From: Sphingomonas panacis
Lineage (GTDB): Bacteria > Pseudomonadota > Alphaproteobacteria > Sphingomonadales > Sphingomonadaceae
NCBI RefSeq assembly: GCF_001717955.1
Contig: NZ_CP014168.1
Span: 1,898,001 to 1,962,000 of the forward strand
Direction: 5' to 3'
DNA length: 64,000 bases
Shown: positions 43,623 through 47,262 of the stretch, piece by piece
Layout of the letters: every line of letters starts with the position of its first letter
Numbering within the stretch: the first letter of the stretch is position 1
Notes under the pieces: model-generated
What the model was told of the DNA's origin: nothing
What the model saw: only the letters and a program-made list of their open reading frames with translations
Database searches by the model: none
Translations under genes and position numbers: made by a program

Positions 43623-45761
43623 GTGACCGATAAACCCACGCTCGACCAATGGTCCGCCGCCGCCGCGAAAGAGGTGAAGGGCAAGGATCTCACCTGGCAA
43701 ACGCCCGAGGGGATCGACGTCAAGCCGCTCTACACCGCCGAGGACGTCGCCGATCTCGACCCCGGCCTGCCCGGTTTCGCGCCGTTCACGCGCGGCGTGC
43801 GCGCCTCGATGTACGCGGGCCGGCCGTGGACGATCCGCCAATATGCCGGCTTCTCGACCGCCGAGGCATCGAATGCTTTCTACCACCGCAACCTCAAGGC
43901 CGGGCAGAAGGGCCTGTCGGTCGCGTTCGATCTCGCCACGCACCGCGGCTATGACTCGGACCATCCGCGCGTCACCGGCGATGTCGGCAAGGCCGGCGTG
44001 GCGATCGACACGATCGACGACATGAAGATCCTGTTCGACGGCATCCCGCTCGATCAGATGTCGGTCTCGATGACGATGAACGGCGCGGTGATCCCGATCC
44101 TCGCCTTCTTCATCGTCGCGGGCGAGGAGCAGGGCGTGCCGCGCGCGCAGCTCGACGGGACCATCCAGAACGACATCCTCAAGGAGTTCATGGTCCGCAA
44201 CACCTACATCTACCCGCCCGAACCCTCGATGCGGATCATCTCGGACATTTTCGGCTACACCAGCCGCGAGATGCCCAAGTTCAACAGCATCTCGATCAGC
44301 GGCTATCACATGCAGGAAGCCGGCGCGACGCAGGTGCAGGAGCTTGCCTTTACCATCGCCGACGGCATGGAATATGTGAAATACGGCGTCGCCTCGGGCC
44401 TCGATATCGACAAGTTCGCCGGACGGCTCAGCTTCTTCTTCGCGATCGGCATGAACTTCTTCATGGAGATCGCCAAGCTGCGCGCCGCGCGCGTGCTGTG
44501 GCACCGCGTGATGACGCAATTGGGCGCGCAGGACGAGCGCTCGAAAATGCTGCGCACCCACTGCCAGACCAGCGGCGTCAGCCTCACCGAGCAAGACCCC
44601 TACAACAACGTCATGCGCACCACGATCGAGGCGATGGCGGCGATGCTCGGTGGGACGCAGAGCCTTCACACCAACGCGCTCGACGAGGCGATCGCGCTGC
44701 CGACCGATTTCTCGGCCCGCATCGCGCGCAACACGCAGATCGTGATTCAGGAAGAGACGGGGATGACCAAGGTCGTCGATCCGCTCGGCGGCAGCTATTA
44801 TATCGAGAGCCTGACTCAGCAGCTCGTCGACAAGGCGTGGGAAATCATCGAGCGCGTCGAGGCCGAGGGCGGCATGGCCAAGGCGGTCGCGGCGGGATGG
44901 CCCAAGGCGATGATCGAGGAAGCGAGCGCCGGCCGCGCCGCCCGCGTCGATCGCGGCGAGGACGTGATCGTCGGCGTCAACAAGTACAAGCTGGCGCAGG
45001 AAGATCCGATCGATTTCCTCGATGTCGACAACCATGCCGTGCGCGAGGCACAGATCGCGCGCATCAAGACCTCCAAGGCGGGTCGCGACGAGGCGAAATG
45101 CCAGGCCGCGCTCGATGCGCTGCGCGAGGGCGCGCGCGGCACCGCCAACCTGCTCGAACTGGCGGTCGAATGCGCCCGCCAGCGCGCCACGCTCGGCGAG
45201 ATCAGCCAGGCGATGGAGGATGTGTTCGGTCGCTACGGCACCAAGCCGACCCCGGTCTCGGGCATCTATGGCGGCGCATATGGCGACGACGCCAAGTGGC
45301 AGGGGCTGATCGACGGCGTCGGCTCGGTCACGCGCGCCAAGGGCCGCCGTCCGCGCCTGCTCGTCGCCAAGATGGGGCAGGACGGGCATGATCGCGGCGC
45401 CAACCTCGTCTCCTCGGCGTTCGGCGATCTCGGTTTCGAGGTGGTGCCGGGGCCCTTGTTCCAGACGCCCAAGGAAGCCGCCGATCTCGCCATCGCGAGC
45501 GATGTCGACGTGGTCGGCGCATCCAGCCTCGCCGCCGGCCACAAGACGCTGATTCCCGAACTGATCGGCCATCTGCGCGAGGCCGGGCGCAGCGATATCA
45601 AGGTGATCGCGGGCGGCGTGATCCCGGCGCAGGATTATCAGGGCCTGCGCGATGCGGGCGTGCAGGGGATTTTCGGCCCCGGCACGAATCTGGTGGACGC
45701 CGCGGGCGAGGTGTTGAAGTTGCTCGGGCACAATATGCCACCAGTCGAGGAAGTTGCGTAA
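43623..45761 (+). CDS. scpA: Methylmalonyl-CoA mutase
   Basis: 712-aa adenosylcobalamin enzyme converting (R)-methylmalonyl-CoA to succinyl-CoA. Substrate barrel to about residue 560 ([54 protein letters not shown]) and a C-terminal B12-binding domain with [20 protein letters not shown] (His ligand to cobalt, near residue 590) and [17 protein letters not shown] start 43623 with ACGGAG upstream. The stop is TAATG-overlapped by bioB. A methylmalonyl-CoA epimerase gene is not in view. Confidence 0.96.
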
Positions 45762-46897
45762 TGCGTGATGTCATTGATCTCCCCTCCCTGGAAGGGAGGG
45801 GCCGGGGGTGGATCGGCTCGTTGGAGAACGAGTCCGTACCCCCCACACCGACCCACCCCCAGCCCCTCCCTTCCAGGGAGGGGAGCGTAAGGACGGATTG
45901 GACCCGCGCCGAAATCGCCGACCTGTTCGCGCTCCCGTTCGACGAACTGATGTTCCGCGCGCAGACCGTCCACCGCGCGCACCACACCCCCTCGCAGGTG
46001 CAGCTTTGCACGCTCTTGTCGATCAAGACCGGCGGCTGCCCCGAGGATTGCGGCTATTGCAACCAGTCCGCCTCGGCCGAAACCGAGCTCAAGGCGTCGA
46101 AGCTGATGGACGTCCGCGCGGTGCTGCAATCGGCGGCGCAGGCGCGGGACGCCGGCTCGCAGCGCTTCTGCATGGGTGCGGCGTGGCGCAACCCGAAGGA
46201 CAAGGACATGCCCGCCATCGTCGAGATGGTGAAGGGCGTGCGCCAGATGGGGATGGAAACCTGCATGACGCTCGGCATGCTGACGCCGGGCCAAGCCGCG
46301 CAGCTCGCCGACGCCGGGCTCGATTACTACAACCACAATATCGATACCTCGCCCGAGAAGTACGGCGAGGTCATCACCACGCGCACCTTCCAGGACCGGC
46401 TCGATACGCTGGAGAACGTGCGCGAGGCGGGCATCAACGTGTGCTGCGGCGGTATCGTCGGCATGGGCGAGACCCGCGGGGATCGCGTCGGCTTCGTCCA
46501 CGCGCTCGCCACCTTGCCGCGCCACCCCGAGAGCGTCCCGGTCAATGCGCTCGTGCCGGTCAAGGGCACCGTGCTCGGCGACATGCTCGCCGACACCCCG
46601 CTCGCGCAGATCGACGACATCGAATTCGTCCGCACGGTCGCGGTCGCGCGCATCACCATGCCGCTATCGATGGTGCGCTTGTCGGCGGGCCGCGAGAGCA
46701 TGAGCGAGGCCACGCAGGCGTTGTGCTTCATGGCGGGCGCCAACTCGATCTTCACCGGCGATCGGCTGCTCACCACCGGCAATCGCGGCGACAGCGCCGA
46801 CGCCGCGCTGTTCGCCAAGCTCGGCGTCGTCGCGATGCAGGGCGAGGAGCCGGCGCGCGCCGCGAAGGCGTCGGCGGGGGGCTGCACCGCGTGCTGA
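45761..46897 (+). CDS. bioB: Biotin synthase with a repeat-encoded N-terminal extension
   Basis: Radical-SAM enzyme inserting sulfur into dethiobiotin. Fe-S ligands are C93, C97 and C100 in [13 protein letters not shown]; other motifs are [33 protein letters not shown] and GANSIFTG. In E. coli the three Cys are 53, 57 and 60; the shift of 40 is caused by residues 7-42, which are encoded entirely by a palindromic repeat (45779-45885). No in-frame ATG, GTG or well-placed start exists after the repeat, so ribosomes must start at ATG 45761 (overlapping the mutase stop) or within it. Position next to pccA fits supply of biotin to the carboxylase. Confidence 0.93.
45779..45885. repeat. 107-bp palindromic element inside the bioB reading frame
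   Basis: A perfect 24-bp inverted repeat (45779-45802 with 45862-45885) extended by an 8-of-9 match inward (45803-45811 with 45853-45861). Each arm is itself a small palindrome, and a CTCGTT/AACGAG hairpin sits in the centre. The RNA would fold into a long stem in the first 125 nt of bioB. The translated form, residues 7-42 of BioB, is rich in Pro, Gly, Glu and Arg and has no biotin synthase counterpart. Confidence 0.9.
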
Positions 46898-47262
46898 TGT
46901 TCGCGCTCGCCGCCGCGACGGCGCCTCCGACACCCAAACCGACCGCCACGCCCGGCCCGCAGACCCAGCGCGCGCTCGCCGACTACAAAGCGGCCGATAG
47001 CGCGATGGCGAACCAGTGGCGCATCACCAACGCCTTCATGAAGGGCAAGGACGCGCAGGACCACCGCCGCAGCCACTTCGCTTATGCCGACGCGCTGCTC
47101 ACCAGCCAGCGCGCGTGGATCAGCTATCGCGATGCCGCCTGCCGGGTCGAAGGCGGCGTCCACGCCGGTGACGTGCGGCAGGCGCTGATCGTCGCACAGT
47201 GCAAGACCGCGCTCACCAATGCGCGGCGGCTCCAGCTCAAGGGGCTGATGGCTAACGAATGA
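46897..47262 (+). CDS. LprI-like (DUF1311) small protein
   Basis: 121-aa protein whose ATG overlaps the bioB stop (TGATG). N-terminal 25 residues are Ala/Pro/Thr-rich and could be a weak signal peptide. The C-terminal 80 residues show the DUF1311/LprI pattern: DSAMANQWRITNAFM, SQRAWISYRDAACRVEG and VAQCKTALTNARRLQLKGL with two Cys. LprI proteins are lysozyme inhibitors in mycobacteria, but most family members are uncharacterised. Its place inside the bioB-pccA transcript is unexplained. Confidence 0.8.
   Translation: MFALAAATAPPTPKPTATPGPQTQRALADYKAADSAMANQWRITNAFMKGKDAQDHRRSHFAYADALLTSQRAWISYRDAACRVEGGVHAGDVRQALIVAQCKTALTNARRLQLKGLMANE

Follow-up and report, generated by a model that had tools for sequence, protein, structure and literature searches.

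A palindromic element inside the biotin synthase gene of Sphingomonas panacis shares its arms with DUF559-bearing elements

The biotin synthase gene bioB of Sphingomonas panacis contains, close to its start, a short palindromic element whose inverted arms also enclose DUF559 (PF04480) genes elsewhere in the same genome. The bioB element is probably a gene-less form of these DUF559-bearing copies. Our data further support repeated invasion of the junction between an upstream mutase gene and bioB, with palindromes that differ among members of the genus. In-frame palindromes within genes are already known; the recurrent bioB insertion site and the DUF559-bearing copies appear to be new, and neither was visible to an earlier note on this DNA. 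In the literature searched, including the accessible parts of PMC1189080 and PMC12306157, DUF559 genes flanked by palindromic arms were not described, and searches that did not name bioB met no report of a recurrent bioB site.

Results

The window, by which we mean the whole 64,000-nt stretch of DNA that was analysed, holds bioB on the forward strand at 45761..46897. Its product of 378 amino acids was identified as biotin synthase by a match to 1r30 (2.9e-123) and to TIGR00433, above the cut-off. The preceding gene (43623..45761, forward strand) encodes a mutase, which we take to be of the methylmalonyl-CoA type, with its C-terminus directly upstream of the element. The mutase stop codon TAA (45759-45761) and the bioB ATG at 45761 share one base, in line with the start/stop overlap described in the earlier note.

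The element itself is 107 bp long (45779..45885, with no strand assigned) and consists of two inverted, hairpin-forming arms around a 59-base centre. Its left perfect arm of 24 bp (45779..45802) contains the hairpin CCCCTCCC-TGGAA-GGGAGGGG at 45781-45801, and the right perfect arm, also 24 bp (45862..45885), is the reverse complement of the left. The arm reads CTCCCCTCCCTGGAAGGGAGGGG, and each of the two forms a hairpin by itself. If mismatches are allowed, the arms reach 45770-45816 and 45848-45894 (87%). These coordinates bear out the earlier description of a 107-bp element with perfect 24-bp arms that lies wholly inside the bioB frame. The strong RNA hairpin claimed for the bioB initiation region was likewise recovered, the fold of 45720-45930 having a z-score of -7.35 with none of 200 shuffles equally stable. 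Within the window, the arm motif matched four times, always inside the two arms of this element, against an expectation of 0.04.

Read from ATG 45761, the element makes up codons 7-42 of bioB (36 residues), which is the extent first proposed for it. Codons R44-W47 (45890..45901, forward strand) open the conserved BioB core, which reads R[TN]DW in most relatives, and the TIGR00433 match begins at residue 46. In the alignment with 1r30, the BioB of E. coli, W47 pairs with chain position 30. If this chain carries a 23-residue tag, position 30 would correspond to W7 of E. coli BioB, and the N-terminus is shifted by the 40 residues that had been claimed. The supposed lack of a good start codon after the element also held, as the first in-frame ATG, GTG or TTG 3′ of it is ATG at codon 64, within the conserved core. 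Two other codons, TTG21 in the centre of the element and ACG45 just after it, could in principle serve for initiation. We strongly infer that BioB is translated through the element from ATG 45761.

By eye, a gene similar to that found 3′ of bioB (about 46897-47262 of the window) seems to precede bioB in several relatives, L066 and L074 among them, and gene order around bioB thus appears rearranged among them.

The S. panacis genome (5.32 Mb in two contigs) contains 40 matches to the arm motif with up to two mismatches, 20 on each strand, and none to the reversed pattern. At least 17 full-length copies were found (40 of 54 candidates scored), in addition to single arms and wider pairs. Matches to the element DNA occur in 47 of 100 genomes searched, S. 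panacis included, and all of these except G062 belong to the same genus. As judged from Pfam and NCBIfam identifications, five of the 17 full copies lie in frame in identified genes: besides bioB these are the E2 acyltransferase gene (residues 119-154, between the lipoyl and E3-binding domains) and the genes for HpnB (residues 39-73), HrpB (an 86-bp copy, residues 501-529) and GlyS (residues 501-536), the last two numbered within the available stretch. On the basis of ORF and GC-position maps, we assigned the other 12 to intergenic DNA or to sites 5′ of genes, with closer inspection limited to the LysR, UbiB, LigD and AccA cases. Among the copies classed as intergenic, 51 of 72 frames are open, and lengths vary modulo 3.

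The E2 insert is common to S. panacis and the genomes of L195 and L196. Judged from the peptides, the E2 linker between the lipoyl and E3-binding domains (L355-L370) seemingly holds different palindrome-derived segments across relatives, and it seems to be a second repeatedly invaded coding site. The underlying alignment comprises 15 of 16 genomes; G237 dropped out as the motif was not found, G053, G185 and G186 are partial, and G122 contains masked letters.

Several individual copies have features of their own. In GlyS (L005:1230-3107, reverse strand), the peptide suggests a second palindrome of another type. In the ubiB copy (L004), the right arm ends as a purine run a few bases ahead of the ubiB GTG start, and the element may supply the ribosome-binding site for this gene. 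At three copies on contig C1 of the S. panacis genome (G000), s8 (L010:1688-2791), s13 (L020:1610-2713) and h3 (L155:400-1503), an ISAs1-family transposase gene lies beside the palindrome. The three products are identical over 367 of 367 amino acids and the end sequence adjoining the arm, ATCGCATTTGGCG, is common to all, as if this IS targeted the palindrome hairpin. Among the 15 of 17 full copies tested, no target-site duplications were seen: the summed best direct repeat was 18 against a null mean of 25.7, and 988 of 1000 shuffles scored as high or higher.

A search for bioB across the genus matched 266 of 267 genomes, and the match in G105, at least, is too weak to be bioB. We examined 142 loci (62 and a further 80 best-scoring matches, a sample that leans to close relatives), of which 141 are distinct, L064 and L150 being an identical locus. 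A palindrome near the N-terminus of bioB was called at an inverted-repeat score of at least 13, a value reached by none of 994 shuffles. By this measure, 34 of the 142 loci carry a palindrome, and 108 score 12 or less. The threshold does not fall in a clean gap, as scores of 10-12 occur at eight of the 141 distinct loci; five of these eight have partial or decayed palindromes by eye and stand outside all counts. Of these five, L227, L256 and L264 have an in-frame palindrome that can be read through from upstream, L205 is open and truncated by the contig end, and in L242 the palindrome is not open from upstream. L227 and L256 each have one hairpin, a single half-element, in frame near the bioB N-terminus.

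In 33 of the 34 loci, an open frame runs through the palindrome from a start upstream of it, the sole exception being L075. Between palindrome and core, 20 of the 34 have no ATG, GTG or TTG, and every one of these 20 is open from upstream; the other 14 have a candidate start 3′ of the palindrome. Raising the threshold from 13 to 16 leaves 31 loci, 30 of them open from upstream and 18 without a later start. Together with the four further S. panacis genes with in-frame copies, these counts uphold the claim of a translated in-frame insertion resembling the Rickettsia elements. If starts lay 3′ of the palindromes, about 0.24 in-frame cases per locus would be expected, a figure obtained by dividing by three the proportion of open frames in the 12 S. 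panacis copies classed as intergenic. The 34 loci are non-independent and comprise about eight arm types, three of which are related CCCCTCCC types. For eight independent in-frame arm types the chance would be about 1e-5, and fewer types would make this weaker. L072, L211 and L237 were assigned by eye as CGTC-1-like after automatic sorting, and L248 fits its own type poorly.

Of 67 distinct bioB loci directly behind the mutase gene, 30 carry a palindrome, versus 4 of 74 in other contexts (p = 2.7e-8); 37 of the 67 fall under the threshold, a few with partial or decayed palindromes. In all 30 mutase-linked cases the arm starts at least 11 nt past the mutase stop, and in 21 it starts 11-24 nt past it. 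The nearest relatives by BioB have a different arm type at the same site, CCCCTCCCGC in L195 and L196 as opposed to TGGAA in S. panacis. In L195, the bioB locus of G173, a second palindrome is nested in the first and the frame is open through both. A tree from about 240 nt of bioB required 30 multi-state changes (shuffled minimum 32, mean 33.7), and the mutase label required 31 changes on the same tree. This tree is too weak to count insertions, and we therefore argue recurrence from the arm types.

Two further observations concern these loci. A nested palindrome of the form GTTTC[A/G]GGT...ACC[T/C]GAAAC with inner hairpins was seen inserted in element copies (L029:1501-1672 and L195). Genome G257 has two mutase-linked bioB copies (L197 and L199), both without a palindrome at the threshold and with longer N-terminal leaders.

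In S. panacis, two arm pairs about 450 bp apart (L162 and L163), with the same arms as the bioB element, enclose DUF559 genes. In a second S. panacis arm type, the arms are spaced 74-82 bp in ten gene-less pairs and 396 bp in one pair that encloses a DUF559 gene, and three arms stand alone. We scored DUF559 loci for arms at the score threshold within 130 nt on both sides, with random segments as control. Inverted arms bracket 29 of 34 loci from S. panacis and relatives of its order (36 loci, two of them too short), compared with 1 of 366 controls. Across all bacteria, they bracket 51 of 76 testable loci among the best 80 of 557 relatives (four lie at a contig edge), compared with 0 of 380 controls; arms at the threshold are absent from the other 25. 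The two sets overlap slightly, L275 being a record of L167. Among the 51 loci are some from Alpha-, Beta- and Gammaproteobacteria and some from one or a few bins each of Gastranaerophilales, Dehalococcoidia, Omnitrophota, Marinimicrobia and Rokuibacteriota; several of the non-proteobacterial loci derive from metagenome bins, which can be misassigned.

DUF559 frames extend into the arms in many of the listed cases from S. panacis and its order, and among arm-bearing loci, protein similarity correlates with arm similarity (r = 0.49 for 28 loci and r = 0.21 for 72 loci; 0 of 2000 permutations in each). The predicted model of the DUF559 protein (pLDDT 89.8) matches 3hrl, an endonuclease-like structure, and the homing endonuclease I-Bth0305I, with a weak match to Vsr (E 0.04). 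I-Bth0305I (3r3p) is matched by the DUF559 profile as well. A comparison of the flanks of the two DUF559-bearing S. panacis copies yielded no clean empty site. A control pairing the flanks of different DUF559 loci proved unsuitable, arms being common between loci (top ten of 60 pairs, 16-93). The CGTC, CGTTCG, CTCCTGCG and CGTACCC arms of other bioB loci are absent among the DUF559 arms listed, and DUF559 may therefore not explain all bioB insertions.

Discussion

We propose that the bioB insert is probably a gene-less DUF559-type mobile element, inserted just past the mutase stop and retained for being in frame. In the gene-bearing form, the same arms would surround a DUF559 gene for a nuclease like Vsr and homing endonucleases. 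A homing-type nuclease of this kind would insert or copy the DNA bounded by the arms, and gene-less copies would use it in trans. Insertion would have taken place 17 nt past the mutase stop. As this stop shares a base with the bioB ATG, the new DNA would have come to lie inside bioB after six codons. A habit of settling close behind upstream genes, as the available text of PMC3733652 describes for REPs of S. wittichii, combined with overlapping start and stop codons, would lead to just such a placement. The insert would have been kept because the frame was preserved and no stop was added. Insertion near gene ends would in this way put some copies into coding sequence, frame-breaking inserts would be lost, and BioB would carry a tolerated N-terminal insertion. 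The anatomy of the loci points to DUF559 as the mobilising enzyme; a preference of the element for gene 3′ ends and a tolerance of BioB for the insertion are likewise suggested.

Beyond its mobility, the palindrome could have been co-opted, its RNA hairpin tuning mutase-bioB coupling or mRNA stability. This idea is compatible with a gene-less DUF559-type element, and we regard it as unlikely. The enrichment at the mutase-bioB junction speaks for it, as does the presence of different palindromes, not simple absence, in close relatives; with the arm never starting nearer than 11 nt to the mutase stop, the initiation site would also stay free. However, a regulatory role fits poorly with the many mutase-linked loci below the threshold and with the E2 linker, which has in-frame palindromes without such a junction.

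An ordinary REP dimer or IS-derived MITE, moved by a RAYT or DDE transposase and with the DUF559 genes as passengers between palindromes, is a similarly doubtful reading. The element does resemble an inverted REP dimer, and the genome has one PF01797 (RAYT-type) gene; an 8-base GGGAGGGG stands by itself about 23 nt from its domain. Yet this gene has no arms around it (flank score 10) and no full copy within 1.5 kb, and we rejected it as the mobiliser. The element also lacks a GTAG or CGTC tag, and the absence of target-site duplications from the copies tested speaks against ordinary DDE transposition. Passenger genes would moreover sit uneasily with the inverted arms found on both sides of DUF559 genes in many groups, with the many frames that enter the arms and with the correlation between protein and arm similarity.

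Finally, it is very unlikely that the palindrome is an untranslated leader, with BioB starting after it or at TTG21 and the frame from ATG 45761 open by accident: a strong hairpin does lie close to the bioB start, translation at L075 and L242 would have to begin 3′ of the palindrome or within its right half, a GTG follows the right arm in the ubiB copy, and the accessible part of PMC3733652 warns that N-terminal REPs may come from wrong start calls, but S. panacis and 19 other loci have no ATG, GTG or TTG from the end of the palindrome to the core and are all open from upstream, and copies classed as intergenic are open in 51 of 72 frames and vary in length modulo 3.

If DUF559-type mobility is indeed the origin of the bioB insert, a large group of bacterial palindromic repeats would gain a testable enzyme, and the PLPSREG-like protein segments of element-bearing and DUF559 loci would be explained. 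The bioB loci also constitute a natural series of replicates, in that many species of the genus hold a palindrome, of one type or another, at the N-terminus of one biotin-pathway enzyme, and this makes tolerance, frame selection and effects on expression measurable. On a wider scale, we give roughly even chances to the idea that DUF559 with inverted palindromic arms forms a widespread, unnamed class of minimal mobile element with a homing-endonuclease-like gene of about 110 codons. The C-rich palindromes of many genomes would then be its gene-less derivatives, the often-open arms would become lasting protein insertions, and the mutase-bioB junction and the E2 linker would be repeated landing sites.

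The closest parallel is with the Rickettsia palindromic elements (RPE), which Ogata et al., cited by PMC3733652 and PMC5896051, reportedly found in frame within protein genes. Sphingomonas is not known as an intracellular genus. The S. panacis element resembles RPE in forming a palindromic family with in-frame copies in genes of an alphaproteobacterial host, adding tens of residues to conserved proteins; in-frame insertion into such genes was found in bioB, E2, HpnB, HrpB and GlyS and at 33 of 34 bioB loci. In contrast to RPE, it has a recurrent site with several arm types as well as DUF559-bearing copies, and its arm does not fit the description of RPE-4 and RPE-6 as CGTC types, a comparison made with that description and not with RPE sequences. 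The in-frame element that the earlier note placed in a free-living alphaproteobacterium was confirmed in bioB. The setting, however, is not new, since the available text of PMC3733652 reports in-frame GTAG/CGTC REPs from free-living bacteria, S. alaskensis and E. litoralis among them.

These REPs, as far as the accessible portion of PMC3733652 describes them, are similarly hairpin units arranged as inverted dimers, often near the 3′ ends of upstream genes and sometimes intragenic. The same portion places REPs at about the same recB site in two Xanthomonas and states that CGTC REPs have no apparent dedicated transposase. CGTC-like dimers occupy the bioB site in some relatives (L072 and L237). 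The S. panacis bioB element differs, by eye, from the CGTC REP as described in that portion (CGTC tag, 8-9 bp stem with an A-T start, CCA-like tail) in lacking both the tag and the A-T pairs at the stem base. Unlike GTAG REPs with their RAYT, it has no GTAG tag, and the PF01797 gene is not flanked by the repeat.

Short gene-less copies, some of them in-frame fusions, also characterise the QMITEs of Coxiella, according to the part of PMC5896051 available to us. In contrast to MITEs, the putative autonomous gene here encodes a DUF559 nuclease and not a transposase, and no target-site duplication was seen in the copies tested. A DUF559 domain is present in VsrA of Caulobacter, as stated in the accessible section of PMC12907096. 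The likeness to Vsr and homing endonucleases rests on the profile and model matches to 3r3p and, weakly, on the model match to Vsr. Unlike in those systems, the nuclease gene lies here between inverted palindromic arms, and the same arms recur in many gene-less copies.
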